DNA from: an uncultured Mycobacteriaceae bacterium
GTDB lineage: Bacteria > Actinomycetota > Actinomycetes > Mycobacteriales > Mycobacteriaceae
Assembly: GCA_902826815.1 (NCBI GenBank)
Contig: CADEGF010000005.1
Location: 128,382 to 192,381, forward strand
Length of the DNA: 64,000 nucleotides
Reading direction: 5' to 3'
The notes beneath the pieces were generated by a model. It saw nothing but the letters and a program-made list of their open reading frames with translations, had not been told where the DNA came from and made no database searches. This document shows, piece by piece, positions 3,599 through 64,000 of this stretch (positions within the stretch are counted from its first letter, which is position 1; each line of letters begins with the position of its first letter). The position numbers and the translations under genes are program-made.

Positions 3599-3604
3599 TG
3601 TATT

Positions 3605-3610: not shown

Positions 3611-3615
3611 ATTCG

Positions 3616-4527: not shown

Positions 4528-4534
4528 TGGCCTG

Positions 4535-7036: not shown

Positions 7037-7052
7037 ACATCCAGCGTGCCAT

Positions 7053-7058
7053 TAGGCT
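7053..7058 (+). promoter_or_regulatory. -10 hexamer for leaderless pxpA
   Basis: TAGGCT fits the mycobacterial TANNNT -10 pattern. With a 6-base spacer the transcription start would be the A of the pxpA ATG at 7065, so the mRNA would be leaderless. No Shine-Dalgarno sequence precedes the gene, which agrees. Confidence 0.45.
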
Positions 7059-7064
7059 GGCGGC

Positions 7065-7823: not shown

Positions 7824-8743
7824 TGCGCCTGCGGCCCGGCCGACCCGATCTCGGTGACTACACGAGGTTTTTCGACGCGCCACAGGCCGCCGCCGATGCT
7901 GCGTTGACGGTGACGTGGGCCGGTGTCTCCACACTGCTCGTCGACGACGGATCCTCGGCGCTGATGACCGACGGCTTCTTCTCCCGCCCCGGTCTGGTCA
8001 CCGTCGGACTGCGGCAGATCGCGCCGTCGGCCGCGCGGATCGACGGCAGCCTCGAACGGTTGGGGGTCGACCGACTCGAGGCCGTGCTGCCGGTGCACAC
8101 CCATTTCGACCACGCGATGGACTCGGCGGTAGTCGCCAAGCGCACCGGGGCGCGTATCGTCGGAGGCGCGTCGGCGGCGCACGTCGGCATCGGGGGCGGC
8201 CTCCCCGAGGACCGCGTGGTGGTCGCGACGCCTGGTGAACCCGTCACACTGGGCGCCTACGACGTGACGCTGGTGAAGGCCGAACACTGTCCCCCCGACC
8301 GGTTTCCGGGTGTGATCACCGCACCCGTCACGCCGCCGGTAAAAACGTCGGCGTACAAATGCGGCGAGGCGTGGTCGACGCTTGTGCACCACCGGCCGTC
8401 TGGCCGTCGGCTGCTGATCATCGGTAGCGCGGGCTTCGTCCCCGGTGCGCTCGCCGACTACCGCGCCGAGGTGGTGTACCTGGGCATCGGTCAACTGGGC
8501 GTGCAGCCCGAGCGTTATCTCGTCGACTACTGGACTGAGACGGTGCGGGCGGTCGGCGCGCGCCGCGTTGTGCTGATTCACTGGGACGACTTCTTTCGGC
8601 CGCTGACCGCGCCGCTGCGCGCCCTCCCGTATGCCGGGGACGACCTCGACGTGTCGATGCGCGTGCTCACCGCGCTCGCCGCCGACGACGGCGTCCCGCT
8701 GCATCTGCCGACGCTGTGGCAACGCGCTGACCCGTGGAGCTGA
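7823..8743 (+). CDS. Metallo-beta-lactamase-fold hydrolase
   Basis: A 306-residue MBL-fold protein. The metal motif is VHTHFDHAMDS (HxHxDH, near residues 92-101), with further candidate ligand His residues in KAEHCP and LIHWDD. It belongs to the L-ascorbate-lactonase/UlaG-like part of the superfamily by general pattern; the substrate is unknown. Its ATG shares the A of the pxpA TGA stop, and its own stop overlaps the following permease by 10 bases. The coupling suggests a shared small-molecule pathway, perhaps lactone or lactam opening, but that is inference. Confidence 0.75.
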   Translation: MRLRPGRPDLGDYTRFFDAPQAAADAALTVTWAGVSTLLVDDGSSALMTDGFFSRPGLVTVGLRQIAPSAARIDGSLERLGVDRLEAVLPVHTHFDHAMDSAVVAKRTGARIVGGASAAHVGIGGGLPEDRVVVATPGEPVTLGAYDVTLVKAEHCPPDRFPGVITAPVTPPVKTSAYKCGEAWSTLVHHRPSGRRLLIIGSAGFVPGALADYRAEVVYLGIGQLGVQPERYLVDYWTETVRAVGARRVVLIHWDDFFRPLTAPLRALPYAGDDLDVSMRVLTALAADDGVPLHLPTLWQRADPWS

Positions 8744-9972
8744 CGCTCGCGCTGGTCGCGCTGGCCGTCGTGCTGGCGTTCGCGATGGTCAAACCTCGGG
8801 GCTGGCCGGAGGCTGTCGCCGCGGTACCCGCCGCGGGGCTGCTCATCGCATTCGGCGTCGTGCCGTTGCGAGAGGCGGCCCACGAGGTCCAGCAGCTGCT
8901 CCCGGTGGTGCTGTTCCTGGCCGCCGTGCTGATGCTGGCGCAACTCTGCGACGACGAGGGGCTGTTCCGGGCCGCCGGTGCGGCGATGGCAAGATCGGCC
9001 ACCGGCGCTGCGGGACTGCTGGTGAAAGTGTTCGTGATGGGCGCCGTGACGACAGCGGTCCTGAGCCTGGACGCGACCGTAGTGCTGCTGACCCCCGTGG
9101 TCCTCGCGACAACCCGCACACTCCGGGTTCCGGCAAGGCCGCACGCGTACGCCACCGCACACCTGGCCAACACCGCGTCGCTTCTTCTGCCGGTGTCGAA
9201 CCTGACCAACCTGCTGGCGTTCAGCGCGGCGGGCCTGTCCTTCGTTCACTTCACCGCCGTGATGACACCATCGTGGCTGGCGGCCGTCGTCGCCGAATTC
9301 TTCCTGCTGCGTTGGCTTTTTGCGCGGGATCTTGCCGTTAGACCCGCACCTGAGCCGACACCCGAACCGGTGCGGGTTCCGGTATTCGTGTTGGTGGTAA
9401 TCGCCCTGACGTTGGTCGGGTTCGCCGTCATGTCGCTGCTCGGCTTCTCACCCGCGTGGGCCGCGCTCGCCGGGGTCGTCGTGCTCGGCGTGCGGGCACT
9501 GGCCCGGCGGGACACGTCGGTGGCGCGCATCGCACGGGCAGCCGATGTGCCGTTCCTGGTGTTCGTGCTGTGCCTTGGGGTGGTCGTCGACGGGTTGATG
9601 CTGCACGGCCTCGAATCCGCGATGCGCGGGGTGCTCCCCGACGGCACCACGCTGCTCGCGCTGCTCGGCATCGCGGCCGTCGCGGCGGTGCTGTCCAATG
9701 TCGTCAACAATCTGCCCGCCGTCCTCGTGCTGCTGCCGCTGGTGTCCGCATCGGGGCCCGCCGCGGTACTGGCGATGCTGCTGGGCGTGAACATCGGACC
9801 CAACCTGACATATGTGGGCTCACTGGCGAATCTGCTGTGGCGCAGCGTCGTCCGCCGCGACATTCCCGCGGGGTTCCGCGAGTTCAGCCGCGTCGGCCTG
9901 ATCACCACACCGGTCACGCTGATCGTGGCCGTGCTCGGACTCTGGGTCGGCATCGCACTGTTCGGTGTCTAG
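8734..9972 (+). CDS. ArsB/SLC13-like anion permease
   Basis: A 412-residue, very hydrophobic protein with about 10-11 predicted membrane segments. It resembles the ArsB/NhaD/SLC13 ion-transporter superfamily: LSLDATVVLLTPVV near residue 110 and NVVNNLPAVLVLLP near residue 325 are the paired re-entrant motifs of this fold. Substrates in the family include arsenite, sodium/proton and dicarboxylates. No arsenic genes lie nearby, so an organic anion such as the product or substrate of the preceding pxpA/MBL pair is as likely. The GTG start overlaps the upstream gene by 10 bases. Confidence 0.7.
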   Translation: MELTLALVALAVVLAFAMVKPRGWPEAVAAVPAAGLLIAFGVVPLREAAHEVQQLLPVVLFLAAVLMLAQLCDDEGLFRAAGAAMARSATGAAGLLVKVFVMGAVTTAVLSLDATVVLLTPVVLATTRTLRVPARPHAYATAHLANTASLLLPVSNLTNLLAFSAAGLSFVHFTAVMTPSWLAAVVAEFFLLRWLFARDLAVRPAPEPTPEPVRVPVFVLVVIALTLVGFAVMSLLGFSPAWAALAGVVVLGVRALARRDTSVARIARAADVPFLVFVLCLGVVVDGLMLHGLESAMRGVLPDGTTLLALLGIAAVAAVLSNVVNNLPAVLVLLPLVSASGPAAVLAMLLGVNIGPNLTYVGSLANLLWRSVVRRDIPAGFREFSRVGLITTPVTLIVAVLGLWVGIALFGV

Positions 9973-10158
9973 TCTGCACGTCGAGCGTATGGGCTACGGA
10001 CGGCGTTGATCGGTTTACGCGCCACAACCCATACACTCGAGCGCTGGCTAAGAGCCGGTTACGGCGATACCAACAACAAAGGGCCGGCTGACGTCCAGTC
10101 GTTGATCGATGGCGCTGCGGTTGGCGAACCGCCATGCCTTCCAACCAAAATGTGACCC

Positions 10159-10917
10159 GTGGGCGCCTTCACTCGCTACGTGGCCATTGGCGACTCCTTC
10201 ACCGAGGGCGTCGGCGATCCACACCCGTCGAGCCCCAACGGTCTGCGCGGGTGGGCAGATCGCGTAGCGGATTCTTTGGCGCAAGCCAACCCGGATCTGC
10301 GCTACGCGAACCTCGCCGTGCGGGGCAGGCGGATGGCCGAGATCCTCGACGAACAGCTGCACACCGCGCTGATGCTCGAGCCGGACCTCGTCACCATCTA
10401 CGCGGGGATGAACAACCTGCTCCTTCTGCGCAACGACGTCGACGCCATGATGGCCAGATACGCCGAGGGGCTCAAGGCACTGCAACAGTCCGGGGCGGTC
10501 GTGCTTGCCTTCACCGCGGCCGATCTCGGCACGGTGCCGCTGTTCCGGCGCCTGCGCGGCCGCGCCGCGGTCTACAACGAACTGCTGCGCGGCATCGCCG
10601 ACGACCTAGGCCTGGCTCTCGTCGACTTCTGGCGGTTCGCCGAGTTTCGCGACTCACGCCTGTGGGACGGCGACCGAATCCATCTGTCACCGCTCGGTCA
10701 CGAACGATTCGCGGCCAAAGTGCTTGACACGCTTGCGGTCTCTCACGAGCTGACCTCACGTTCGCCGCTGTCGTCGACCCCACCGGAGCGGGACTTCCGA
10801 TCGAATCTCCGGTGGACCGCTGCGTTCGCGGCACCGTATGTCGCCAAGAGGATGCGGCTGGCCAATCGGGGCGAGGTTGTCGGGCCGAAGCTCACCGAGC
10901 TGACGAAGGTGCTCTAA
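10159..10917 (+). CDS. SGNH/GDSL-type hydrolase
   Basis: A 252-residue SGNH hydrolase. Block I is [14 protein letters not shown] (nucleophile Ser near residue 13), the block II Gly is in NLAVRGRRM, block III is [10 protein letters not shown] (Asn), and the catalytic Asp/His pair is [14 protein letters not shown] near residues 173-186. Such enzymes are esterases or lipases; many mycobacterial ones are uncharacterised. There is no signal peptide, so it should act in the cytoplasm. The 186 bases upstream show no clear promoter or Shine-Dalgarno sequence. Its stop overlaps the convergent rlmB stop by 2 bases. Confidence 0.8.
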
Positions 10918-11861
10918 CCCCGTCGCTGGCGCGCGATTTCGGCCAGCACCACACCCGCGGCCACCGAGGCGTTGAGCGACTCCGTCGGTCCGGCCATCGG
11001 AATCGACACCACCGCATCGCAGGTCTCGCGAACCAGCCGCGACAGGCCCTTACCCTCGGAGCCGACCACCAGAACGATCGGATCCGTACCGTCAAACTCG
11101 TCGAGCGTGATGTCGCTGTCGGCGTCCAGCCCGACCACCTGAACACCGGCATCTTGCCAACTCTTCAGCGCCCGAGTGAGATTCGTCGCCCTGGCAACGG
11201 GGAGTCTGGCGGCGGCACCTGCGCTCGTGCGCCATGCGACAGCGGTGACCGATGCCGATCGTCGCTGCGGGATCAGCACCCCGTGGCCGCCGAAGCCGGC
11301 AACCGAGCGCACGATCGCACCAAGGTTGCGAGGATCCGAGATGTTATCCAGCGCGACAAGCAGGGCAGGCGTGCTGTCCTTGGTCGCGGTCGCAAGCAGG
11401 TCGTCGGGGTGTGCGTACTGGTACGGCGGCACCTGCAACCCGATGCCCTGGTGCAGTCCGTTCGAGCTCATGCGGTCCAGGTCGCTGCGGGGCACCTCGA
11501 GAATCGAGATCCCGGCATCGGCTGCGCGCCTTACCGATTCGGTCAGTCGCTCGTCTGCGTCGGCGCCCAGCGCCACGTAGAGCGCCGTGGCTGGCACGCC
11601 TGCGCGCAGGCACTCCAGTACGGGGTTGCGGCCGAGCACCACCTCGGTGTCGTCGGTGCGCCGCTTCTGCTGCCGCTGTTGTTGGTTCTTGGCGGCCCTC
11701 TTCGCGGCCTTGGCGGCGGGATGATGGGGCCGTTGGTGCGCGGGCGGTGTTGCGCCACGCCCTTCAAGACCGCGGCGGCGTACCCCGCCCGAGCCGACCT
11801 GGGGACCCTTCTTGGTGCCGGGTTTGCGGATCGCGCCTTTGCGTTGAGAGTTGCCTGCCAT
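10914..11861 (-). CDS. rlmB: 23S rRNA (guanosine-2'-O-)-methyltransferase RlmB
   Basis: A 315-residue SpoU/TrmH-family RNA methyltransferase. A lysine/arginine-rich N-terminal tail (residues 1-75) precedes the substrate-binding domain ([15 protein letters not shown]) and the trefoil-knot domain: [17 protein letters not shown] (motif 1), [12 protein letters not shown] (motif 2) and [15 protein letters not shown] (motif 3). It should methylate the peptidyl-transferase-loop guanosine of 23S rRNA. It matches M. tuberculosis Rv3579c in place and size. The ATG at 11861 shares one base with the cysS stop (TAATG), so it is coupled to cysS; a longer reading from 11891 is not needed. Confidence 0.88.
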
Positions 11862-13261
11862 TACTTGGTGTACCCGTCCAGCAGGGTCCACTGCGGTCCA
11901 TCGGCGGTGTCGGTGACATCGACCCCGGCCTGCTTCAACCTGTCCCTTATCGCGTCGGCCTCCGCCCAGTCCCTGCGTTCCCTTGCATCCTGGCGTCGCT
12001 GAATCTCGGCGTGCACCAACACATCGACGGCCGCCAGCGCGGCGGACGTCTCATCGCGGGACTCCCAGCGCTCGTCGAGCGGATCGCAGCCGAGGATGCC
12101 CATCATGGCGCGGATCGAACCCGCGCGGGCCATCGCCGTCTCGTGGTCGCCCGCTTCCAGCGCCCGGTTGCCCTCTGCGCGGGCGGCATGTACCTCCGCG
12201 AGCGCGATCGGCACCGACAGATCGTCGTCGAGTGCGGCCGCGTATGCGGGCGTCCACTCGCCCACCTCGACGGCGCCGACCCGGTTGCGGACACGGTGCA
12301 GGAACTCCTCGACGCCGGTGTAGGCCTTCGCCGCGTCCTGCAATGCGGTCTCGGAGAACTCCAACATCGACCGATAGTGCGCACTGCCAAGGTAGTACCG
12401 AAGCTCGGCGGGCCGAACCCGTTGCAGCACAGCGGGTATGGCCAGTACGTTGCCAAGCGACTTGCTCATCTTCTCGCCACCCATGGTGACCCAGCCGTTG
12501 TGCAACCAAAAGCGGGCGAACCGGTCGCCTGCGGCCTCGGCCTGTGCGATCTCGTTCTCGTGGTGCGGGAAGATCAGGTCCATACCGCCTGCGTGGATGT
12601 CGAACTCCGCGCCGAGATACGCCTCGCACATCGCGACGCATTCGGTGTGCCAGCCGGGCCTGCCGCGTCCCCACGGCGTCGGCCACGACGGTTCGCCCGG
12701 TTTCTCGCCCTTCCACAGGGTGAAGTCGCGCTGGTCGCGCTTATCGGTGGCGGTGCCCTCGCCCTGATGCACGTCGTCGATCCGGTGGCCGGACAGCTTG
12801 CCGTAATCGGGCAGGCTCAACACGTCGAAGTAGACGTCACCGCCTGCGGCATAGGCGTGGTTGTCGTCGATCAACCGGGTGATCAGCTCGATCATCTCGG
12901 TGATGTGGCCCGTGGCACGCGGCTCAGCCGACGGCGGCAGCACGCCAAGCGCGTCGTAGGCGGCCGAAAACGCGCGCTCGTAGGTGGCGGCCCACTCCCA
13001 CCACGGCCTGCCCGCGTCAGCGGCCTTGTTGAGGATCTTGTCGTCGATATCGGTGACGTTGCGGATGAACGCGACGTCGTAGCCCTTGGCCATCAGCCAA
13101 CGGCGCAGCACATCGAACGCCACGCCGCTGCGCACGTGGCCGATGTGGGGCAGGCCCTGGACGGTCGCGCCGCACAGGTATATCGACACATGGCCGTCGC
13201 GCACCGGCACGAATTCACGGACAGCGCCCGCCATCGTGTCGTACAGCCGCAGATCGGTCAC
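11861..13261 (-). CDS. cysS: Cysteinyl-tRNA synthetase
   Basis: A 466-residue class I aminoacyl-tRNA synthetase charging tRNA-Cys. It has the HIGH motif as PHIGH (residues 38-42), zinc-binding Cys residues ([19 protein letters not shown]), the downstream [11 protein letters not shown], and KMSKS in [10 protein letters not shown]. The GTG at 13261 (VTDLRLYD) is chosen over the longer open frame to 13333 because it matches the family N-terminus and leaves 19 bases to ispF. Fourth in a carD-ispD-ispF-cysS-rlmB run, an arrangement kept across mycobacteria. Confidence 0.93.
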
Positions 13262-13280
13262 GACGGGCCAGCTTACCGGC

Positions 13281-13757
13281 CTATTCCGCGTCGACCACCA
13301 AAGCGGTCGCGATGGCGGCCAAACCGTCACCACGTCCGGTCAGCCCGAGGCCGTCTGTGGTCGTCGCAGACACCGAAACGGGGGCATCCAGCAACTCCGA
13401 GAGCACCTGTTGCGCCTCCGCGCGCCTCGGTCCCACCTTGGGACGGTTACCGATGACCTGGACGGCCGCATTACCCACCCGGTAGCCCTCGGCCCGTATC
13501 AGCCCGTGCACGTGCCGCAGCATGTCCGCACCGCTCACGCCCGCCCAGCGCGGATCGTCGGTGCCGAATACCCCGCCGATGTCGCCGAGCCCCGCTGCGC
13601 TCAGCAGCGCGTCACACAGCGCATGGGCCGCCACGTCGCCGTCCGAATGGCCCGCACAGCCGTCGTCGCCGTCGAACAGCAGCCCGAGTAGCCAACAAGG
13701 CCTGCCCGCCTCGATCGGGTGCACGTCGGTGCCGATTCCGACCCTCGGCGTGCTCAC
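13281..13757 (-). CDS. ispF: 2-C-methyl-D-erythritol 2,4-cyclodiphosphate synthase
   Basis: A 158-residue trimeric metalloenzyme of the MEP isoprenoid pathway. It cyclises CDP-ME 2-phosphate to MEcPP with loss of CMP. The N-terminal [10 protein letters not shown] holds the metal-binding Asp/His pair, and [17 protein letters not shown] holds the second His, all in expected places. The length equals other mycobacterial IspF proteins. The GTG start overlaps the ispD stop by 4 bases (GTGA), so IspD and IspF, which act two steps apart, are coupled. Confidence 0.93.
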
Positions 13758-14419
13758 GCGGTACCCGCCAGGAGGGCCTCGGCGAGCAGCAGATCGTTCG
13801 GCGTGGTGATCTTGAAGGCCAGCGGATCGCCCTCGACGACCTGCACGGGCGTCCCGATCGACTCGACCAACGATGCGTCGTCGGTGAAGCCGCCCGCGAC
13901 CGCCCGCTCGTAGGCGCGCCGCAGCACATCGGTCTGAAAGCCCTGAGGCGTCTGCACGGCCCGCAGGCCCGATCGGTCGGGCGTGCCGAGCACGACGCCG
14001 TTCGCGTCGACCGCCTTGATGGTGTCGCTGACCGGCAGCGCGGGCACGACCGCGGGATGACCGGATTGCAGAGCCCGCACGACCCGCACGATCAGCGATG
14101 GCGGGGTCAGGGCCCGTGCCGCGTCGTGCACGAGGACGAACTCGGCGTCGCCGACCGCGGCCAACGCGAGGCGGACCGACTCTGTGCGATCGGCGCCGCC
14201 TGCCACGATGATCGCGTCGCCGCCGAAGACCAGCTTGGCCTGGTCGGTGCGGTTGGGTGGCACCGCGACCACGATGTCGTCGACGACGCCGGAGTTACGC
14301 AGACCGCTAAGCGCGTGCTCCAGCATCGGACGACCGACCAGATTGACGAATGCCTTCGGCGCGCCTGCGGCCAACCGTTCCCCTGACCCTGCGGCCGGGA
14401 CGACGGCGACCGTGCTCAT
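13754..14419 (-). CDS. ispD: 2-C-methyl-D-erythritol 4-phosphate cytidylyltransferase
   Basis: A 221-residue nucleotidyltransferase making CDP-methylerythritol from MEP and CTP. The N-terminal loop [19 protein letters not shown] binds CTP phosphates, [10 protein letters not shown] is the metal/nucleotide segment near residue 105, and AVQTPQGF lies near 161. It starts 3 bases after the carD stop and overlaps ispF by 4 bases. Confidence 0.93.
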
Positions 14420-14422
14420 GGA

Positions 14423-14980
<558 letters not shown>

Positions 14981-15182
14981 TCAGGGGCACCGCAGGTGAA
15001 GACTAGGGGTTGACACGGTGACGAATACATGCAAGGCAAGGCCCCCTCAGCGACCACTTGTCGGCCCCTCCCACGTGCCTGTGGATGGTTCGCGGCAAAC
15101 CCGAATCGCCGAGCTGGAACACCTCCGCTACCGCGGACAACCGCCACCTACTACTGTGCATAGTCGAACAGGTCGGCCGAGC

Positions 15183-15188
15183 AGGAGG
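15183..15188 (+). promoter_or_regulatory. Shine-Dalgarno deciding the lpqE start
   Basis: AGGAGG lies 6 bases before the GTG at 15195. It selects this start over the longer open frame from 15018, whose extra 59 residues do not look like protein-coding sequence. Confidence 0.75.
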
Positions 15189-15194
15189 TTCTGG

Positions 15195-15776
15195 GTGAGC
15201 CGCTTCAAATCCCGTGGTTCTGCCGTCAGCGTGGCGCTGGCCGCGTGCGGGCTCGCCGCCGCCGCCGGCCTGTCGGCCTGCAGCGCGGGCCAGGTGTCGC
15301 AGACCAGCACGCAGCAGGCGGCCGTCAACGGCACCGCAGCAACGTTAGGCAAGATCACGCTCCGCAACATCCATCTGCGGGCACCGCAGACGAGCGATTA
15401 CGTCCAGCCGGGCAGCGACGTGGAGTTGCTGTTCGTGGCGTCCAACGACTCACCCGACACGGCCGACAAGCTGACCTCGATCACCTCTGAGTTCGGCACG
15501 GTATCGCTGTCCGGCGACACCTCGCTACCGGCGTCGGACGTCCTCGTCGTCGGCGAGCCCGACGGTCAGGTCGCCGCTCTCGAGCAGACGGAGAAGTCCG
15601 ATGTCGCCACGGCAACGGTCGACATCAACAAGCCCATCACCAACGGGCTGACCTACGACTTCACCTTCAACTTCGAGAAGGCGGGCCAGACGACCGTGCC
15701 TGTGCCGATCTCGGCGGGCGAGGCGCCTCGCCGCGATCAGGCCGGCGAAGGCGGCGACACGGGCGGTCACCACTAA
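15195..15776 (+). CDS. lpqE: Lipoprotein LpqE
   Basis: A 193-residue secreted lipoprotein equivalent to M. tuberculosis LpqE (Rv3584). The signal peptide has basic residues, a hydrophobic core and lipobox LSAC with Cys29 as the modified residue. The mature part ([11 protein letters not shown]...[11 protein letters not shown]..) has the beta-sandwich look of PCuAC-like metallochaperones but no Met/His cluster, so metal binding is not supported. A His pair ends the protein. Divergent from carD over 283 bases, and 33 bases upstream of radA, which has its own promoter. Function is not known. Confidence 0.8.
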
Positions 15777-54917: not shown

Positions 54918-55610
54918 ATGCTGGGGCGGGTGGAGAACATCTTCCACTTCTGGTGGCTGATATTTCCGCTCGCCGGCGTGGTCGGCGGCGCGGTGCGCGG
55001 GGTCGCCGCGGCCAATGAGCGGCGCGCCGACCGTCGGCTGGAGCGATACCGGATCAAGCAGCAGACCAAGATCGCCGTCGCTGAGGCGGCCGGCCGCACC
55101 CGCACCAACGAGGTCAAGTACCGGCGCGAGCTGACGAAGGTCATCGAACGGCACGGGCAGACCGATGCGCGGTGGCTCGACTACGAGATCGACATCGCCA
55201 AGCTGCTCGACTTCCCGCTGATGACCGATATGCGCAACCCGCTGACGATCGAGTTCCACAAGGCTCGGCGGCGGGCGGATCTGCTGCGGCCGGACAACGC
55301 CGATGATCTCGACGGCGACCGCGACGCACAACTGGAGTACCGCGACGCCGTGCACGACTACGTGACCGCGTTCGACGTGGCAGAGGCCGAGGCGATCCGG
55401 CTGCGCCGCAGCACGTTCTCCAACGAGGAACAGCAGCGCATCGCGCGGGCCCAGAACCTGCTCAAGCTGGCCGAAGACGACGGCGCCACGCCGCAGGAAC
55501 GGCAGAGCGCCTACTCGAGGGCCAAGGTCGAACTCGACGGGCTGATCGCGCTGCCCGCAGTCACAAGGGCCAGCATCGAGCGCAAACTCGCAGGCGAGCT
55601 CGAGGCGTAG
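54918..55610 (+). CDS. Hypothetical protein with N-terminal membrane helix and coiled coil
   Basis: 230 residues. One N-terminal hydrophobic helix (FHFWWLIFPLAGVVGGAVRGVAAA), then a highly charged, almost wholly helical region (RRADRRLERYRIKQQTKIAVAEAAGRT...) with heptad-like spacing to the end. I do not recognise a named family; similar proteins occur in other mycobacteria. It could be a membrane-tethered scaffold. Start ATG 54918 or GTG 54930. It is 7 bases after the serine hydrolase stop, so co-transcription is likely. Confidence 0.65.
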   Translation: MLGRVENIFHFWWLIFPLAGVVGGAVRGVAAANERRADRRLERYRIKQQTKIAVAEAAGRTRTNEVKYRRELTKVIERHGQTDARWLDYEIDIAKLLDFPLMTDMRNPLTIEFHKARRRADLLRPDNADDLDGDRDAQLEYRDAVHDYVTAFDVAEAEAIRLRRSTFSNEEQQRIARAQNLLKLAEDDGATPQERQSAYSRAKVELDGLIALPAVTRASIERKLAGELEA

Positions 55611-55631
55611 TCGACAGGGCCCTCAGGGGCG

Positions 55632-55855
55632 TCAGGCAGCGCCGGCAAGCGGTAGGCGACGTGCGATGCGATCCAACGCCGCAGCGGCCAGCTGCCGCAT
55701 GTCCTGTTCCGGCGTAGTGCAGGGCGTCGAGCCTGCTGCAGGTCGGGAGCCGCGAGGCGCACCGCCGCGGTCTCACCGGCGGTGAGCTCGCTCCAGTTGT
55801 CGCCTTCGGCGTCGGCCACGAACAGCCGCAACCCACGATTGCGTTCGCTTACCAC
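55632..55855 (-). pseudogene. Small gene broken by two frame changes
   Basis: Three reading frames make sense in turn. It begins VVSERNRGLRLFVADAEGDNW...RLAAPDLQQ in one frame, passes through LDALHYAGT in the next, and ends EQDMRQLAAAALDRIARRLPLAGAA with a TGA (55632-55634) in the third. Joined, they give a smooth protein of about 75 residues. Either this is a pseudogene or the assembly has two small indels. Family unknown. Confidence 0.5.
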
Positions 55856-55936: not shown

Positions 55937-58900
55937 GTGGCGATGCCGGAGATTCCCGAGCAGTACCTGTTGTCGCCGCACGCACCGGAGCCGCGCACGC
56001 TGGTGGACATCCTCTACGACACCGCGACGCGCTACCCCGATGCGCCCGCGATCGACGACGGATCGGTCCAACTGACCTACAGCGAGCTGATCACCGACAT
56101 CGAGGACAGCGTCGCGTGGTTGGCGGCGCGCGGCATCGGACGCGGCGATCGCGTCGGCATCCGCATGCCGTCGGGCAGCTACGCGCTCTACGTCGCGATC
56201 CTTTCGACGCTCGCCACCGGAGCCGCCTACGTGCCGGTGGACGCCGACGACCCCGACGAGCGGGCCGCGCTCGTGTTCGGCGAGGCGGGCGTCGTCGGCG
56301 TCATCACCGACAAGGGCCTGGTCCGCGGTGCAGGTGACTCCCGCGGCTGGCGCGCCGCGTCGCCGTTGGGCCGCGACGATGCGTGGATCATCTTCACCTC
56401 CGGATCGACGGGAACCCCGAAAGGCGTGGCGGTCATGCATCGCAACGCCGCGGCGTTCGTCGACGCCGAGGCGCAGATGTTTCTGCAGGACAACCCGATT
56501 GGGCCCGGCGACCGGGTGCTGGCCGGGCTGTCGGTCGCCTTCGATGCGTCCTGCGAGGAGATGTGGTTGGCCTGGCGCAACGGCGCCTGCCTGGTGCCCG
56601 CACCCCGATCGCTGGTGCGCAGCGGGATGGACCTGGGGCCGTGGCTGGTGTCGAAGGACATCACGGTGGTCTCGACGGTGCCGACGCTGGCCGCGCTGTG
56701 GCCGGCCGAGGCGTTGGAGGCGGTGCGGCTGCTGATCTTCGGCGGCGAAGCCTGCCCACCGGACCTCGCGGAGCGGTTGGCCGCCGGACCCGACGCCGCG
56801 GGCCGCGAGGTGTGGAACACCTACGGCCCCACCGAGGCCACGGTCGTCGCGTGCGCGGCCAAGCTCGACGGCCTAGGGCCGGTCAGCATCGGGCTGCCGC
56901 TGCCGGGCTGGGACCTGGCCGTCGTCGACAAGGATGGCGCGCCCGTCGACATCGGCACGGTGGGCGAGCTGGTGATCGGCGGCGTCGGTCTGGCCCGCTA
57001 TCTCGATCCGGAGAAGGACGCCGAGAAGTACGGGCCAATGCCGACGCTGGAATGGAGCCGCGCGTACCGCAGCGGTGACCTGGTACGGCTGGAGCCCGAC
57101 GGGCTCTACTTCCAAGGCCGCGCCGACGATCAGGTCAAGGTGGGCGGGCGTCGCATCGAACTCGGCGAGGTGGACTCCGCTCTTGTGAACCTGCCCGCAG
57201 TGAGCGGCGGTGCCGCGGCGGTGCGCAAGACCGCCAGCGGCACGCCCCTGCTGGTCGGCTACATCGCCAGCGCCGACCCGGCGTTCGACGTTGCGGCCGC
57301 TCGCACATCGCTGGCGGAGTCGCTGCCTGCCGCCCTGGTGCCGCGCCTGGTTCTCCTCGACGAACTGCCCACCAGGACCTCGGGCAAGGTGGACCGCGAC
57401 GCCTTGCCGTGGCCGCCGCCGGGCGAACCCGAGCAAGAGGCAGCAGACCTCGGCGGCACGATGGGCTGGCTGGCCGGATTGTGGCGCGACGTGCTGGCCG
57501 CGCCGGTGGACGGACCGGAGGCCGACTTCTTCGCGCTGGGCGGTGGATCGCTTTCGGCGGCGCAGTCGGTCGCGGCGCTGCGCGAGCGCTATCCGCAGGT
57601 GACGGTCGCCGACGTCTACGACCACCCGCGGCTGGGGTCACTGGCCGGGTTCCTCGACGAGCTCGACCCGCCCCCACAGGTCGAGACGCGGACGGTACGG
57701 CCGATGCCGTTGCTGTCGCAGGCATTTCAGGTCGTCATGTCGCTGCCGCTCGCCACGCTGACCGGACTGCAGTGGGTGGTGTGGCTGGCGCTGATCAACA
57801 ACGTCGCCGCAACCGTGAGCCCCGCGCCGTGGCTGATCCTTATCAACTGGTGGTGGGTGCTCGGCGGGTTCGCGCTGTTCGTCACGCCGCTCGGCCGGAT
57901 GGGCATCGCGGTGTTGTCGGCGCGGATTCTGATCGGCTTCCTGAAACCGGGCACGTACCGGCGCGGCGGTTCGGTGCACATGCGGGTGTGGCTCGCCGAG
58001 CGTCTCGCCGATGCCAGCGGCGCGGAGAACCTGGCCGGTGCGCCGTGGATGGTGTACTACGCGCGGGCGCTGGGTAACAAGGTCGGCAAGGGCGTCGACC
58101 TGCATTCCGCGCCCCCGGTGACCGGCATGCTCACACTGGGCCATCGCAGTTCGATCGAGCCGGAGGTGGACCTGACCGGGCACTGGATCGACGGTGACCA
58201 CTTCCACGTCGGCACAGTCACCATCGGCAACGACGCCACCATCGGTGCACGCACGACACTGCTGCCCGGCGCGTCGGTCGGCAAGAACGCTGACGTCGCA
58301 GCGGGGTCGGGTGTGGTCGGCCGGATGAAGAAGGGCCAGTACTGGAAGGGCTCTCCCGCGGTGAAGTCCGGCAAGGCCCGTCATCCGTGGCCGGAGGAGC
58401 GCCCTGGCCGGGCGCCGTTCTGGGTGATCGTCTACGGCGTCACGTCAATGCTGTTGGGCGCCTTGCCCCTTGCGGCGCTGGGCTGCGGGCTGGCGGTCAT
58501 CGGTTGGGCGATCCGGGATTCCGCGTCGGTGACCGATGCCATCGTGCCCGCCCTGATCTGGATTCCGGCGGCGACGCTGGCGGCGCTGGTGGTGTATGCG
58601 GTGTTGACGGTCGTCGGGGTGCGTCTGCTGTCGCTGTGGCTGCGCGAGGGATACCACCCGGTCCGCAGCCGCACCGGCTGGCAGATATGGGGGACGGAGC
58701 GTCTCATGGACGCCGCCCGCCACTATCTGTTCCCGCTCTACGCAAGCCTTCTCACGCCGACATGGCTGCGCGTGCTCGGCGCGAAGGTCGGCCGCGGCAC
58801 CGAGATCTCCACCGCACTGCTGACACCGAAGTTCACCGTCATCGAGGACAGCGCGTTCCTGGCCGACGACACCATGGTGGCGTCCTACGAACTGGGCGGC

Positions 58901-59857
58901 GGCTGGATTCACGTCGCCAAGGCGACAATCGGAAAGCGCGCGTTCCTCGGCAATTCCGGAATCACGCAGCCGGGCCGGAAGGTGCCCGACGACGGCCTGG
59001 TGGCTGTGCTTTCGGCGGCCCCGCGCAAGTCGAAGGCGGGCTCCTCGTGGCTCGGCAGCCCACCGATCCGGTTGCGCCGCAAACCGACTGCCGCCGATGC
59101 ATTGCGGACATTTCATCCGCCACTGCGCCTGAAGATCATGCGCGGCTTCGTCGAGACCTGCCGACTGGTTCCGGTGATCGTCACGTTCGCGATAGGGGTG
59201 AGCGTGCTGTTCGCGTTACAGTTCCTGGTCGTCGAATTCGGCTACCTGTGGGCGACACTCGCCAGCGGCGTGGCGCTGCTGGCCGCGGGAGCTGTCGCCG
59301 GCGCCATCGCAGTGATCGCGAAATGGGTTGTGGTGGGACGCATCCGGGCCGTCGAGCACCCGCTGTGGTCGGCGTTCGTCTGGCGAAACGAAGTCGCCGA
59401 CACGTTCGTGGAGACGGTGGCCGGACCGTGGTTCGCCAGGGCGGCCACCGGCACGCCGGTGATGAACCTGTGGCTGCGGGCGCTTGGCGCCAAGATCGGA
59501 AGGGGTGTCTGGTGTGAGTCCTACTGGCTGCCCGAGGCGGACCTGGTCACCTTGGAGAGGGGGGCCACGGTCAATCGCGGTTGTGTGGTGCAGACCCACC
59601 TGTTCCACGACCGTGTCATGCGAATGGACACCGTCGTGCTCGAGCAGGGATCGACGTTGGGACCGCATTGTGTTGCGCTGCCCGCCGCACGCCTGGGTGC
59701 GGGCGCGACCGTCGGCCCCGCGTCGTTGGTGATGCGCGGGGACGAGGTTCCGCCGTCGACCCGCTGGCAGGGCAATCCGATCGCCCCGTGGAACATGTTC
59801 GGAAAGAAGCGCGATGACACGCAGCCAGAGGACACCACCGAAGAAGCCGTCGCGTGA
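55937..59857 (+). CDS. Pls/PosA-type non-ribosomal peptide synthetase
   Basis: 1306 residues. The adenylation domain (about 20-490) has TSGSTGTPKG (154-163), FDAS (202), NTYGPTE (294-300), YRSGDL (377) and TSGKVDR (481). The carrier domain has LGGGSLS with the phosphopantetheine Ser at 538. Membrane helices cluster at about 600-670, 830-900 and 1130-1190, between three left-handed-beta-helix/hexapeptide-type soluble parts. This is the layout of epsilon-poly-lysine synthetase (Pls) and relatives, which polymerise one amino acid through side-chain amides and lack condensation and thioesterase domains. Monomer unknown. The GTG start follows TACGTT by 6 bases, and the gene overlaps the peptidase gene by 4. 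Confidence 0.85.
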   Translation: MAMPEIPEQYLLSPHAPEPRTLVDILYDTATRYPDAPAIDDGSVQLTYSELITDIEDSVAWLAARGIGRGDRVGIRMPSGSYALYVAILSTLATGAAYVPVDADDPDERAALVFGEAGVVGVITDKGLVRGAGDSRGWRAASPLGRDDAWIIFTSGSTGTPKGVAVMHRNAAAFVDAEAQMFLQDNPIGPGDRVLAGLSVAFDASCEEMWLAWRNGACLVPAPRSLVRSGMDLGPWLVSKDITVVSTVPTLAALWPAEALEAVRLLIFGGEACPPDLAERLAAGPDAAGREVWNTYGPTEATVVACAAKLDGLGPVSIGLPLPGWDLAVVDKDGAPVDIGTVGELVIGGVGLARYLDPEKDAEKYGPMPTLEWSRAYRSGDLVRLEPDGLYFQGRADDQVKVGGRRIELGEVDSALVNLPAVSGGAAAVRKTASGTPLLVGYIASADPAFDVAAARTSLAESLPAALVPRLVLLDELPTRTSGKVDRDALPWPPPGEPEQEAADLGGTMGWLAGLWRDVLAAPVDGPEADFFALGGGSLSAAQSVAALRERYPQVTVADVYDHPRLGSLAGFLDELDPPPQVETRTVRPMPLLSQAFQVVMSLPLATLTGLQWVVWLALINNVAATVSPAPWLILINWWWVLGGFALFVTPLGRMGIAVLSARILIGFLKPGTYRRGGSVHMRVWLAERLADASGAENLAGAPWMVYYARALGNKVGKGVDLHSAPPVTGMLTLGHRSSIEPEVDLTGHWIDGDHFHVGTVTIGNDATIGARTTLLPGASVGKNADVAAGSGVVGRMKKGQYWKGSPAVKSGKARHPWPEERPGRAPFWVIVYGVTSMLLGALPLAALGCGLAVIGWAIRDSASVTDAIVPALIWIPAATLAALVVYAVLTVVGVRLLSLWLREGYHPVRSRTGWQIWGTERLMDAARHYLFPLYASLLTPTWLRVLGAKVGRGTEISTALLTPKFTVIEDSAFLADDTMVASYELGGGWIHVAKATIGKRAFLGNSGITQPGRKVPDDGLVAVLSAAPRKSKAGSSWLGSPPIRLRRKPTAADALRTFHPPLRLKIMRGFVETCRLVPVIVTFAIGVSVLFALQFLVVEFGYLWATLASGVALLAAGAVAGAIAVIAKWVVVGRIRAVEHPLWSAFVWRNEVADTFVETVAGPWFARAATGTPVMNLWLRALGAKIGRGVWCESYWLPEADLVTLERGATVNRGCVVQTHLFHDRVMRMDTVVLEQGSTLGPHCVALPAARLGAGATVGPASLVMRGDEVPPSTRWQGNPIAPWNMFGKKRDDTQPEDTTEEAVA

Positions 59858-61182
59858 CCCGGTCGAAGAAGGCGGCCAAGAAGGTCCCGGTGATCGACCC
59901 CTACCTGCCCCACGCAGGCAACTTCGGCTACCGGGTGTCGCGCTACGAACTCGATCTGGAATACAAGGTCGCAGTCAATCGGCTGACGGGAACGGCGACG
60001 ATCACCGCTGCCACGCTCGCCGCGCTGCGGACCTTCACGCTGGACCTTTCGGCTGCCCTTGCCGTGACCAAGGTTTCGGTGAACGGGCGTCGGCCCGCGG
60101 CGTTTCGCTGTTCCGGCGGCAAGCTGCACATCACGCTGTCGACGTCGCTGCCCGCGGGAGCGGCGATGACGATCGTCGTCCGGTACGGCGGCACTCCCCA
60201 ACCCGTCCGATCGGTCTGGGGTGAGGTCGGCTTCGAGGAGTTGACCGAAGGGGTTCTTGTCGCCGGGCAGCCCAACGGCGCATCGTCGTGGTTTCCGTGT
60301 GACGACCATCCGAGCTCGAAGGCCAGCTACCGGATCCAGATCGCCACCGAGAACCCTTATCGTGCAATCGCCAACGGCGAGTTGAAGTCCCGGCGGACCC
60401 GAGCGGCGATGACGACGTGGACCTACGAGTTGGCGGAGCCGACGTCGACGTATCTGATTACGCTTCAGATCGGGGTGTACGAGTCCTATCGGCTGCAGAA
60501 GTCCCCGGTGCACATGCACGCCGCGCTGCCCGCCAGGTTGAAGCGCACCTTCGACCACGACTTCGGCCGTCAGCCGCAGATGATGAAGGTCTTTGTGAAG
60601 CGGTTCGGCCCGTACCCGCTCTCGACTGGCTACACAGTCGTCGTCACCGACGATGAACTGGAGATTCCGCTTGAGGCGCAAGGAATTTCGATCTTCGGCG
60701 CCAACCATTGCGACGGGCATCGGGGGTCGGAACGGTTGATCGCCCACGAGTTGGCGCACCAGTGGTTCGGCAACTCGGTGACGGCAAGGCGGTGGCGCGA
60801 CATCTGGCTGCACGAGGGTTTCGCCTGCTACGCGGAATGGCTGTGGTCGGAGGAGTCCGGCGGCGACACGGCCGACCAGTGGGCGCACCACTACCATCAG
60901 CGTCTGGCTGATTCGCCACAGGATCTACTGCTGTCGGACCCGGGCCCGCGGGATATGTTCGACGACCGGGTGTACAAGCGTGGAGCGCTCACGCTGCATG
61001 CGCTGCGAGGCATCGTCGGTGACGAGAATTTCTTTGCACTGCTGCGGGATTGGACCACCCGGCACCGCCACTCGACCGCGGTGACCGACGACTTCACCGG
61101 CCTTGCCGCCAACTATGCGGATGTGTCGTTGCGGCCGCTGTGGGACGCGTGGCTGTATTCCACGGACGTGCCACCGCTGTGA
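59854..61182 (+). CDS. M1-family (gluzincin) metallopeptidase
   Basis: 442 residues. An N-terminal beta-sandwich domain (20-200) precedes the catalytic domain with HELAHQWFG near residue 308 and the third ligand Glu in WLHEGFACYAEW 19 residues on, a textbook HExxH-x18-E. The exopeptidase GAMEN motif is altered to LEAQG. The C-terminal helical domain of long M1 enzymes is missing. No signal peptide, so it acts in the cytoplasm. GTGA overlaps with the synthetase upstream and with the membrane protein downstream show tight coupling; trimming or degrading the synthetase product is the natural hypothesis. Confidence 0.85.
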   Translation: MTRSKKAAKKVPVIDPYLPHAGNFGYRVSRYELDLEYKVAVNRLTGTATITAATLAALRTFTLDLSAALAVTKVSVNGRRPAAFRCSGGKLHITLSTSLPAGAAMTIVVRYGGTPQPVRSVWGEVGFEELTEGVLVAGQPNGASSWFPCDDHPSSKASYRIQIATENPYRAIANGELKSRRTRAAMTTWTYELAEPTSTYLITLQIGVYESYRLQKSPVHMHAALPARLKRTFDHDFGRQPQMMKVFVKRFGPYPLSTGYTVVVTDDELEIPLEAQGISIFGANHCDGHRGSERLIAHELAHQWFGNSVTARRWRDIWLHEGFACYAEWLWSEESGGDTADQWAHHYHQRLADSPQDLLLSDPGPRDMFDDRVYKRGALTLHALRGIVGDENFFALLRDWTTRHRHSTAVTDDFTGLAANYADVSLRPLWDAWLYSTDVPPL

Positions 61183-62423
61183 CCGACGCGGCCACTCCCA
61201 CCGGCCCGATCACCCGCGGAAGCGTCGCACGAGTCGGCACCGCCACGGTGCTGACGGCGCTGTGCGGATACGCCGTGCTGTATCTGGCGGCGCGAGACCT
61301 CGAACCCGCAGGCTTCTCGGTATTCGGTGTGTTCTGGGGGGCGTTCGGGCTAGTGACCGGTGCGGCCAACGGTCTGCTCCAGGAGGCGACGCGGGAGGTG
61401 CGGGCGACCGGCTACGTCGAAGTGGTGTCGGGCCCGCGCACGCACCCGGTGCGGGTGGCGGCGATGGTCGGTGTCGTCGCCGCCGCGGTGATCGCGGGTA
61501 GTTCGCCGCTGTGGTCGGGGCATGTCTTCGTCGAGTCGCAGTGGCTGAGCGTCGCGCTGCTGAGCGTCGGGTTGGCCGGCTTCTGCCTGCACGCGACGCT
61601 GCTGGGAATGCTGGCCGGCGTCGGCCGATGGACCCAGTACGGCGCGCTGATGGTGACCGACGCGGGCATCCGGGTGGCGGTGGCGGCGACGACGTTCGTC
61701 ATCGGCTGGGGGCTGGTCGGCTATCTGTGGGCGACCGTGGCCGGCGCGGTGGCATGGCTGATCCTGTTGGTCGCCTCACCGTCCACGCGTGCGGCAGCGG
61801 CGCTGATGACGCCCGGCGGGACGGCGACGTTCCTGCGCGGCGCGGCGCATTCGATCGCCGCGGCCGGTGCCAGCGCGATTCTGGTGATGGGCTTCCCGGT
61901 GCTGCTGAAGGCGACGTCGGGTGACCTCGGCGCCGCGGGTGGTGTGGTCATCCTCGCCGTGACGCTGACCCGTGCGCCGCTGCTGGTGCCGTTGACGGCG
62001 ATGCAGGGCAATCTCATCGCGCACTTCGTCGACCAGCGCACGGAACGTCTGAGGTCCCTTGTGGCGCCTGCGGCCGTCGTCGCGGGGTTGGGCGCCCTTG
62101 GTGTGGTGGCTGCCGGGATCTTCGGGCCGTGGTTGCTGAGGGTGGCGTTCGGCGAGGAATACCGTGCGGCCGGCGCGCTGCTGGCATGGCTGACGGCGGC
62201 GGCGATCGCGATCGCGCTGTTGACGTTGACGGGCGCGGCGGCGGTGGCGGCGGCGCTGCACCGCGCGTATGCGGCGGGTTGGATCAGCGCGACGGCGGTG
62301 TCGATGTTGTTGCTGCTGCTGCCGCTCGCCCTGGAGACTCGCACGGTGGTCGCACTGCTCTGTGGGCCGATGGTGGGAATCGCCGTGCATCTGGGCGCGC
62401 TTGCCAGAAGACCGGCACGGTGA
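61179..62423 (+). CDS. Multi-pass membrane protein, flippase-like (Rv3630-like)
   Basis: 414 residues with about 12 hydrophobic helices, starting at GTG 61179, which overlaps the peptidase stop (GTGA). The helix pattern and ATFLRGAAHSIAAAGASAILVMGFPVLLKA stretch resemble polysaccharide-export/MATE-like (MOP) flippases. It matches M. tuberculosis Rv3630 in order, being followed by ppgS. A role in moving a polyprenyl-linked sugar across the membrane is plausible and unproven. Confidence 0.75.
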   Translation: MTDAATPTGPITRGSVARVGTATVLTALCGYAVLYLAARDLEPAGFSVFGVFWGAFGLVTGAANGLLQEATREVRATGYVEVVSGPRTHPVRVAAMVGVVAAAVIAGSSPLWSGHVFVESQWLSVALLSVGLAGFCLHATLLGMLAGVGRWTQYGALMVTDAGIRVAVAATTFVIGWGLVGYLWATVAGAVAWLILLVASPSTRAAAALMTPGGTATFLRGAAHSIAAAGASAILVMGFPVLLKATSGDLGAAGGVVILAVTLTRAPLLVPLTAMQGNLIAHFVDQRTERLRSLVAPAAVVAGLGALGVVAAGIFGPWLLRVAFGEEYRAAGALLAWLTAAAIAIALLTLTGAAAVAAALHRAYAAGWISATAVSMLLLLLPLALETRTVVALLCGPMVGIAVHLGALARRPAR

Positions 62424-62447
62424 CCGTGTATTTTGGTCCGCATCGAT

Positions 62448-63137
62448 ATGCGCTACCAGGATGTTTGGATCGTCGTACCCGCCTATAACGAGGCGAGCGT
62501 CATCGGCGACGTCATCGGCGATATTCGCTCGGTTTTCGACCACGTCGTCTGCGTCGACGACGGCAGTAGGGACGACACGGGCGATCTTGCGCTGCGCGCA
62601 GGGGCGCACGTCGTATCGCATCCGGTGAATCTCGGCCAGGGCGCGGCGATCCAGACCGGCGTCGAGTACGCCCGTAGCCGGCCGGGCGCACAGGTGTTCG
62701 CGACGTTCGACGCGGATGGTCAGCACCGGTTGAAGGATGTCGTCGCGATGATCGACCGACTGTCCGCCGATGACGTCGACATGGTCGTCGGCACACGATT
62801 CGCCGAGCCGATCGCGAGCAAGCCACCGCTGCTGAAGCGGATCATCCTGCGTGCCGCGGCGGCGGTGAGCCCGAACAGCCGGGAGTTGGGGTTGACCGAC
62901 GCGCACAACGGGCTACGCGTGTTCAACAAGAGGATCGCCGACGAGCTGAACATCACCATGAACGGGATGAGCCATGCCAGCGAGATCATCGCGCTGGCGG
63001 TCGAAAACCGTTGGCGGGTCACCGAAGAACCGGTGGAGATTCTCTACACCGATTACTCGAAGTCCAAAGGGCAGCCGTTGCTCAACGGCGTGAACATCGT
63101 GTTCGACGGGCTGCTGCGAGGGAGGTTGTCCCGATGA
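62448..63137 (+). CDS. ppgS: Polyprenyl-phospho-N-acetylgalactosaminyl synthase PpgS-like (GT2)
   Basis: 229 residues of a GT-A glycosyltransferase of the dolichol-phosphate-mannose-synthase type. VVPAYNEASVIGDVI near residue 8, VCVDDGSRDDT near 34 and TFDADGQHRLKDV (DxD region) near 88; NGLRVFNKRIADEL and SHASEIIALAVENRW near 170. Its M. tuberculosis counterpart Rv3631 transfers GalNAc to decaprenyl phosphate for the galactosamine of arabinogalactan. ATG 62448 is chosen, 24 bases after the previous stop. It overlaps its partner gene by ATGA. Confidence 0.85.
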   Translation: MRYQDVWIVVPAYNEASVIGDVIGDIRSVFDHVVCVDDGSRDDTGDLALRAGAHVVSHPVNLGQGAAIQTGVEYARSRPGAQVFATFDADGQHRLKDVVAMIDRLSADDVDMVVGTRFAEPIASKPPLLKRIILRAAAAVSPNSRELGLTDAHNGLRVFNKRIADELNITMNGMSHASEIIALAVENRWRVTEEPVEILYTDYSKSKGQPLLNGVNIVFDGLLRGRLSR

Positions 63138-63478
63138 ATTGGATTCAGGCGCTGCTGATCCTGTCGATCATCGCGTTGTTGGTGTACCTGTTGCGGTCGC
63201 GCACCAATGCGCGTACCAAGGCGTGGGTGAAGGTCGGCGCTGTGCTGTTCGTGATCGCCGGGGTGTACGCGGTCCTACGGCCAGACGACACCACTATCGT
63301 CGCGAATTGGCTTGGGGTGGACCGCGGTGCGGACCTGATCGGCTACGTGTTGATCATCGCGTTCGTGTTCACCACTCTGAGTACCTACATGCGGTTCAAG
63401 GACATGGAGTTGCGTCAGGCGCGCTTGGCCAGGGCGGTGGCGCTGCAAAGCGCCCGCGCGCCCGACGACGCTCGTTGA
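63134..63478 (+). CDS. Small membrane partner of PpgS (DUF2304, Rv3632-like)
   Basis: 114 residues, the same length as M. tuberculosis Rv3632. Three hydrophobic segments (IQALLILSIIALLVYLLR, WVKVGAVLFVIAGVYAVL, LIGYVLIIAFVFTTLSTYM) and a charged helical tail ending ARAPDDAR. In M. tuberculosis this protein helps the PpgS synthase at the membrane. The DNA for its last 20 or so codons is duplicated 440 bases downstream. Confidence 0.85.
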   Translation: MNWIQALLILSIIALLVYLLRSRTNARTKAWVKVGAVLFVIAGVYAVLRPDDTTIVANWLGVDRGADLIGYVLIIAFVFTTLSTYMRFKDMELRQARLARAVALQSARAPDDAR

Positions 63479-63485
63479 CACTGCG
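63449..63485. repeat. Direct repeat at the 3' end of the Rv3632-like gene, copy 1
   Basis: 37 bases identical to copy 2, within a longer similar stretch (63421-63505; about 76 of 85 positions match by hand). It covers the last codons and stop of the gene plus a few bases. Confidence 0.8.
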
Positions 63486-63562
63486 CTCTGGGCGGCGCCC
63501 ACTCGCACTTTGGCGCCACCAGCGCAGTCTCAATGCTTGGAAATTGGTGACGGTGGACTTCC

Positions 63563-63577: not shown

Positions 63578-63918
63578 GTGGACCTTGGCCTGAGTGGGAA
63601 AAGTGTTGTCTCTCAACAGTTTGAGTACGCCCTCGCAAGGTACTTGACGGACGGACATTTCGTCCAATTTGATGGACCCCTCACTCTTCTGCCTCATGAT
63701 CGGCGCATCGCCATAACGCCCGATTACGATCCACCCGAGCTTTTGACCCGGTGCGCGATCTGGTCGAACAAGTGGTCACCGAGTCGATTGTCGATGAATT
63801 AGGCGTGCTTTCACTCTCATTCGATACCGGCGCAAGGATCGTGATTCGTAGACGACAAGCGCGGTTGGCCAGGTCTGTGGCGCTGCACAGCGCCCGCGCG
63901 CCCGACGACGCTCGTTGA
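63578..63918 (+). pseudogene. Frameshifted DUF6188-like gene fused to a duplicated gene end
   Basis: The first frame, from GTG 63578, reads VDLGLSGKSVVSQQFEYALARYLTDGHFVQFDGPLTL..PDYDPPELLTR. After a one-base frame change near 63720-63750 the sequence continues VRDLVEQVVTESIVDELGVLSLSFDTGARIVI. Together these look like DUF6188, a small actinobacterial family of unknown, possibly immunity-like, role. Its usual C-terminal end is missing; instead the frame runs into a second copy of the Rv3632-like gene's tail (RQARLARSVALHSARAPDDAR, stop 63916-63918). The family call is from memory of the pattern. Confidence 0.5.
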
Positions 63919-63925
63919 CACTGCG
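63889..63925. repeat. Direct repeat, copy 2
   Basis: Second copy of the 37-base identical core, offset by 440 bases, again ending in an in-frame TGA. The flanking 63861-63945 shows the same similarity as in copy 1. Confidence 0.8.
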
Positions 63926-64000
63926 GTGATGGCGGAGCCCACTCGGGCAATGTCAAGTGGTTAGTGCAACATCGGTCAGGCTGCTTCTTTTAGCAGGGCT

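Follow-up and report, generated by a model that had tools for sequence, protein, structure and literature searches.

Why does a gene resembling those of epsilon-poly-lysine synthetases stand directly ahead of mycobacterial cell-wall genes, and does the whole row of genes act as one system? The question is raised by a 64,000-nucleotide stretch of DNA from an uncultured Mycobacteriaceae bacterium (contig CADEGF010000005.1, positions 128,382 to 192,381 of the forward strand; hereafter the window), in which an earlier note had placed five plus-strand genes between positions 55937 and 63478. All five reading frames were confirmed to be open, and the junctions were found as described, with 4-base overlaps at 59854-59857, 61179-61182 and 63134-63137 and a 24-base gap at 62424-62447; for the ppgS frame, an alternative TTG start at 62433 is mechanically possible. 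The first three genes probably constitute a translationally coupled operon of the pls–pldII type to which a third gene was added in this lineage, with a lysine product and a cytosolic peptidase, and with ppgS belonging to a separate unit. The features concerned are given below, where the names Rv3630-like and Rv3632-like are assumed from gene order and from the naming in the earlier note rather than from comparison with M. tuberculosis sequences.

55937..59857, + strand: Pls/PosA-family synthetase gene, 1306 amino acids (aa), with an adenylation (A) domain at aa 7-495, a carrier domain at aa 511-573 and a membrane/hexapeptide C-terminal region at aa 597-1282
55955..57421, + strand: adenylation domain, code DAESIGTVVK (residues 203, 204, 207, 246, 267, 269, 295, 303, 304 and 484)
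57467..57655, + strand: carrier domain (PF00550), phosphopantetheine Ser538
57725..59782, + strand: TIGR02353 C-terminal region, with membrane segments and hexapeptide-repeat stretches (profile matches, hydropathy)
59854..61182, + strand: M1-family metallopeptidase, PldII-like, 442 aa (PF01433, PF17900; HExxH-x18-E)
61179..62423, + strand: Rv3630-like polytopic membrane protein, probable remote kin of Wzx-type (PF01943) flippases, 414 aa (hhalign, 11 hydrophobic segments)
62448..63137, + strand: ppgS, polyprenyl-phospho-N-acetylgalactosaminyl synthase, 229 aa (NF058614)
63134..63478, + strand: Rv3632-like small membrane protein (DUF2304), 114 aa (PF10066; three hydrophobic segments)

The Pls-type layout that had been proposed for the first protein was recovered with family and domain profiles. 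The protein matched TIGR02353, which describes the C-terminal region of the Pls/PosA family, at 744.4 bits (cut-off 423.1), and its only Pfam matches at E 0.001 were AMP-binding, PP-binding, Hexapep and Hexapep_2, giving one A domain and one carrier domain with neither a condensation nor a thioesterase domain in that scan. The position of the carrier Ser538 was occupied by serine in 189 of 190 aligned rows, the remaining row having a gap. Hydropathy revealed five segments in the C-terminal region (aa 632-1127), and a further, probably spurious one in the A domain, the family layout being one of six transmembrane segments between three soluble domains. The nearest solved structure was 7wew, the A domain of the epsilon-poly-L-lysine synthase of Streptomyces albulus (622 bits, or 625 bits when the A domain alone was used), to which the A domain was identical at 317 of 483 aligned residues (65.6%); the score against PosA (8g95) was 182 bits.

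Comparison of the adenylation pocket, which the earlier note had suggested as a check, returned a lysine-type code: all ten residues (DAESIGTVVK, read from motif positions in what we take to be Stachelhaus numbering) were the same as in 7wew, with Asp, Ala and Glu at code positions 1-3. Conservation was assessed in 148 sampled genomes of the window's genus, where M1 and ppgS matches were accepted at E 1e-60 and synthetases at the TIGR02353 cut-off. All 102 genus loci whose A domain is complete kept the code, a count that leaves out three truncated A domains of the 105 genus loci and that of G125 (too short) and includes the second copy in G030. Among the remaining rows (named loci, four plasmid loci, the window and 7wew), 84 of 85 readable codes agreed, although these rows were mostly found with a lysine-type query and are hence biased. 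PosA, the delta-poly-L-ornithine synthetase of Acinetobacter baumannii, belongs to the same family and shares the Asp and Glu pocket positions, but has Met at the second code position where the window protein has Ala; passages of PMC10522769 give its pocket as Asp217, Met218 and Glu221, with Ala at 218 in lysine-type enzymes, and PosA is reported in part of the literature as a single-gene operon. From its pocket residues, the window synthetase is predicted to make a lysine polymer.

The second protein matched Peptidase_M1 (PF01433) and Peptidase_M1_N (PF17900), and the HExxH-x18-E signature of a metallopeptidase that had been noticed earlier was located at residues 298-321. Residues E274, H298, E299, H302, E321 and Y374 were invariant across 23 aligned rows chosen from many loci, and the motif was present in 104 of 104 genus M1 rows and in 72 of 72 other rows long enough to be read, those shorter than 380 aa having been dropped before counting. 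All 105 genus genomes with a synthetase over the cut-off also contained M1, as did G125, in which a contig edge leaves only the last part of the synthetase, so that the pair was present in 106 of 148. Such a pairing has precedents: pls–peptidase operons of Streptomyces and Corynebacterium, and PldII as an epsilon-poly-lysine-degrading enzyme, are described in parts of PMC8117764, and translational coupling of pls to the peptidase gene in parts of PMC9223678. The suggestion in the earlier note that poly-lysine producers carry a degrading peptidase is therefore borne out, and, as operons of this kind are already in print, the pair of synthetase and M1 cannot be called new as a system. With the S. 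albulus pls–pldII and Corynebacterium variabile pls–peptidase operons it shares the synthetase layout, the lysine-type pocket and the adjacent peptidase gene. Coupling of the kind reported for S. albulus pldII was likewise found, since an in-frame 4-base overlap between the synthetase and M1 genes (NTGA pattern) was present in the window and at all 105 loci from the other pair genomes of the genus. Beyond the family, the S. albulus A domain as query gave 592 confirmed loci, and among the best 80 of them M1 directly followed the synthetase in 69; an M1 relative adjoins in Streptomyces pls loci such as L016, the comparison being with that relative and not with PldII itself. Pls homologues have also been predicted in the related genus Nocardia, according to passages of PMC4035055, but six such loci (L058, L078, L082, L085, L087 and L092) differ from the window in that the fetched stretch contains neither an Rv3630-like nor a ppgS match.

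The predicted location of the peptidase differs from that of PldII. By hydropathy, the window M1 protein contained no signal peptide and no transmembrane segment, and a hydrophobic N-terminal stretch was found in none of the 104 genus M1 proteins at the set threshold, whereas 8 of 11 Streptomycetaceae M1 rows carried a twin-arginine pair near the start, 5 of them with a hydrophobic stretch. A position outside the membrane, as reported for PldII in S. albulus, was thus not what the sequence indicated. As the genus rows have no hydrophobic N-terminal stretch, the mycobacterial M1 is placed, tentatively, in the cytosol. A peptidase acting outside the cell was considered and rejected, the sequence carrying no export signal, and trimming of a product outside the cell therefore does not follow.

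In the earlier note, the third gene had been grouped with ppgS and the Rv3632-like gene as a cell-wall set. The junctions mostly place it elsewhere: an in-frame 4-base overlap between M1 and the Rv3630-like gene was present in 81 of 81 genus loci where the two are neighbours, and the overlap between the Rv3630-like gene and ppgS in only 7 of 60 loci. Between ppgS and the Rv3632-like gene it was found in 58 of 64 (these last two counts also take in 14 ppgS-only loci, from 39 such genomes). The overlaps therefore define two conserved coupled units, synthetase–M1–Rv3630-like and ppgS–Rv3632-like, and those at the synthetase/M1 and M1/Rv3630-like junctions of the window are more than chance, as they recur at all 105 and all 81 loci, respectively, from other genomes of the genus. 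The older grouping holds for 23 genus genomes, discussed below, in which the Rv3630-like gene keeps company with ppgS. M1 and the Rv3630-like gene were both present in 105 genus genomes and were neighbours in 82 (81 fetched loci and the window); in G111, a cut Rv3630-like piece adjoins M1 and ppgS lies on another contig. Among pair genomes without ppgS, the Rv3630-like gene still stood beside M1 in 36 of 37, the exception (G015) having no Rv3630-like match at all, and the protein therefore cannot serve ppgS alone. In a tree of 99 genus Rv3630-like proteins, which omits the 16 genomes with a far-separated pair and ppgS, M1 adjacency changed once and ppgS presence nine times, and a tree-based test of ppgS presence against M1–Rv3630-like adjacency contained few informative pairs. 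Adjacency changed six times in a tree of 188 M1 proteins; M1 and Rv3630-like rows that were short or contained stops had been removed before tree building.

What the third protein may do is suggested by profile comparison. The window protein had no Pfam match even at E 5, and hence no direct PF01943 match above the curated cut-off; one of 24 Rv3630-like homologues matched PF01943 directly (E 2.7e-4), and the profile of all 24 matched no solved structure up to E 10. When that profile was aligned by hhalign to 14 frames that enclose PF01943 matches (12 of them above the family cut-off), however, a probability of 97.9% was obtained (E 3.1e-13, 376 columns, 18% identity), against 0.2% for two other membrane families used as controls (TerC-like and Rv3635-like by sequence reading). 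As there were only two controls, and less diverse ones, the evidence for a Wzx-like fold is good but not final. Eleven hydrophobic segments were counted by hydropathy, and a structure model built from six sequences was unusable for the fold (predicted local distance difference test score 37.7). The protein is accordingly best described as a likely remote relative of Wzx-type flippases, and it may be a transporter. This coupling to a flippase-like gene and a peptidase without export signal set the operon apart as a variant of the pls–peptidase type.

The adjacency of M1 and the Rv3630-like gene also occurs outside the genus. A sample of 81 family genomes, including four that belong to the genus, contained M1 in 73, the C-terminal part of the synthetase in 72, the Rv3630-like gene in 24 and ppgS in 23. 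Twenty of the non-genus genomes carried the Rv3630-like gene, 16 of them together with M1, and in 13 of these (G172, G204, G220, G157, G186, G184, G150, G180, G200, G199, G149, G179 and G215; not G205, G154 and G183) the two were same-strand neighbours, with ppgS within the same fetched stretch in every case. The 13 span group codes g3, g4, g9, g11 and g26, with 36-52% identity in the Rv3630-like protein, and the 4-base overlap, found in 4 of 13, was less constant than in the genus. For four g3 genomes and G184 the synthetase lay elsewhere or on another contig. From this adjacency and these loci, the M1–Rv3630-like link appears to be older than the genus and not always accompanied by the synthetase. 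In an M1 tree of 74 chosen rows, g9, g11 and g26 fell among Nocardiaceae M1 partners, and g3, on long branches, in the same larger half. Two g3 genomes had dTDP-rhamnose-type sugar-nucleotide genes (by sequence reading) between the Rv3630-like gene and ppgS.

The identity of ppgS itself, as given in the earlier note, was confirmed by the NF058614 equivalog (417.5 bits, cut-off 370). The window resembles the M. tuberculosis set Rv3630–Rv3631(ppgS)–Rv3632 in having ppgS and a small membrane protein in the same order and differs in that the synthetase and M1 genes precede; M. tuberculosis presumably has neither of these two, as the earlier note stated. ppgS was present in 108 of the 148 genus genomes, which divided into 69 with pair and ppgS, 37 with the pair only, 39 with ppgS only and 3 with neither. 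The gene-neighbourhood survey that the earlier note had called for thus gave no positive co-occurrence, ppgS being present in 69 of 106 pair genomes and 39 of 42 pair-less genomes, and the association was negative (raw Fisher p 4e-4, uncorrected for kinship). As 39 of 108 ppgS genomes had no pair and 37 of 106 pair genomes no ppgS, the lack of co-occurrence, one half of a refuting condition in the earlier note, was found for ppgS, and the three genes as an obligatory unit were rejected. The limit of E 1e-60 cuts no continuum among the listed ppgS matches, since the weakest of them was at 3.5e-78, though more diverged ppgS genes may exist. Measured start to start in the 69 genomes with both, the distance from M1 to ppgS was under 3 kb in 40, 3-6 kb in 5, 6-20 kb in 7 and greater still in 9; in the other 8 the two genes were on different contigs. 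Of the proposed single new system of synthetase, M1 and ppgS, what remains is this positional tie, which is separable from the synthetase–M1 pair, itself of a known operon type.

Downstream of the Rv3630-like gene in the genus, two epimerase types alternate with ppgS presence. One, which we take from gene order to be of the Rv3634c type, was found in 43 of 66 Rv3630-like loci with ppgS and in 0 of 36 without, and a different gene, a GalE-type epimerase, in 29 of 36 loci without ppgS and in 0 of 66 with it; the stretches were limited, and absences are of lower quality. The two types were split within single-linkage cluster c5, which like c7 mixed unrelated or antisense frames, and c7 was dropped. 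Because of this alternation, the galactosamine genes resemble a cassette that is swapped downstream while the synthetase–M1–Rv3630-like unit stays intact. The activity of PpgS has been described, and M. smegmatis is stated to have no Rv3631 homologue (both from parts of PMC3485146), the latter fitting a ppgS that is dispensable in the genus.

In the operon that we favour, the synthetase would activate L-lysine, load it onto its own carrier domain and link lysine residues via their side-chain amines to give an epsilon-lysine oligomer or polymer, which its membrane region would hand across the membrane. M1, exported in Streptomyces but seemingly cytosolic here, would remove lysines from chains that stay or return inside, epsilon-lysine chains being its presumed substrate, and so limit a toxic polycation. 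The Rv3630-like Wzx-type protein, as third coupled partner, may assist passage across the membrane. ppgS and the Rv3632-like protein would form a second coupled unit for polyprenyl-phospho-N-acetylgalactosamine (polyprenyl-P-GalNAc), sharing the locus with no obligatory shared function. Should the lysine product be real, 106 of 148 sampled genus genomes carry genes for a polycation of a kind for which no mycobacterial synthetase was described in the titles and abstract starts of the open-licence literature searched, and the consequences may extend to envelope charge, tolerance to cationic agents and competition. A bolder version, to which we attach little weight, is that many mycobacteria make an epsilon-lysine oligomer with the synthetase and cytosolic peptidase, and that the Wzx-type flippase carries it, or a lipid-linked form, to the envelope; where ppgS is present the flippase would be shared with polyprenyl-P-GalNAc, so that two amine-bearing wall decorations pass through one gate.

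Several observations weigh against this account. Pocket codes can mislead on the product, and according to the portion of PMC8117764 on Corynebacterium variabile, the two-stage culture that was tried first yielded no polymer from that species. The N-terminal stretch of many Streptomycetaceae M1 proteins is missing here, so that the site of M1, and perhaps its substrate, may differ from those of PldII; the four g3 genomes with M1 beside the Rv3630-like gene and the synthetase elsewhere suggest that M1 may have another job. A synthetase with no M1 was seen in eleven of the best 80 of 592 beyond-family loci, three of which (L018, L061 and L063) are cut off by a contig edge, and likewise in plasmid loci L012 and L013. 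Finally, 23 of the 105 genus genomes that carry both M1 and the Rv3630-like gene have the latter apart from the pair and with ppgS: in 16, ppgS is far away or on another contig, with the Rv3630-like gene less than 2 kb from it, and in the other 7, Rv3630-like–ppgS lies upstream of the pair with ppgS 12-16 kb from M1.

These 23 genomes lend themselves to the best-placed alternative, that the neighbourhood is inherited gene order with function only in the synthetase–M1 pair. The Rv3630-like gene was present in 144 of 148 genus genomes whatever its neighbours, and in the pair-less loci L204, L207 and L208 a TerC-like gene (by sequence reading) stands directly before it, as would be expected after an in-place loss of the pair. 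Mere inheritance, however, sits poorly with an in-frame overlap kept at every M1/Rv3630-like junction of the genus and with an adjacency that recurs in five non-genus group codes at that level of protein identity, and we regard this alternative as rather unlikely. More doubtful is a synthetase that moves one or a few lysines onto an envelope lipid or glycan and releases no free polymer, with M1 as a coupled housekeeping aminopeptidase. The hexapeptide stretches of the C-terminal region weakly match acyltransferases, and both the missing export signal of M1 and its place beside the Rv3630-like gene without a synthetase in g3 would suit such a role, but the closest characterised enzymes of the same layout make homopolymers (parts of PMC10522769 and PMC8117764), and layout and pocket are conserved. 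Least probable is a single five-gene envelope system that puts lysine polymer and galactosamine on the wall, with ppgS and synthetase/M1 dependent in either direction: ppgS is often close to M1, within and outside the genus, and both pathways would add amines to the envelope, but the ppgS-less pairs, the negative association, the nine changes against one on the Rv3630-like tree and the scarce Rv3630-like/ppgS overlap all argue against it.

Synthetase genes were also encountered in other settings. Five M. avium/M. intracellulare plasmid records carry a synthetase 72.4% identical to that of the window; the one in L012 (M. intracellulare plasmid NZ_CP023152.1, 6748-17043) carries the lysine code and a 4-base overlap with an upstream PALP enzyme, with non-ribosomal peptide synthetase, PE/PPE and SagB-like genes alongside and no M1 match in the stretch. 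The M1-less synthetase of L013 (Rhodococcus opacus plasmid, 2452-15725) lies among CHAD/CYTH, PhoU, PstB and response-regulator genes, neighbours that hint at some connection with phosphate or polyphosphate. One genus genome holds a second synthetase copy (L201, G030:C82), with no M1 in the stretch. A pair-less genus genome of 3.3 Mb contains two weak, directly adjoining TIGR02353 pieces (G114:C1:203063-203693; about 33 bits each), one of them interrupted by in-frame stops; they are probably a decayed synthetase. Upstream of the synthetase in the window, a small minus-strand frame (55511-55855) resembles, by eye, a shortened relative of a conserved gene that precedes the synthetase in certain other genus loci. 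At the opposite end of the locus, a 93-base direct repeat (88%) links 63413-63505 with 63853-63945, the 3' end of the Rv3632-like gene being copied 440 bases downstream.

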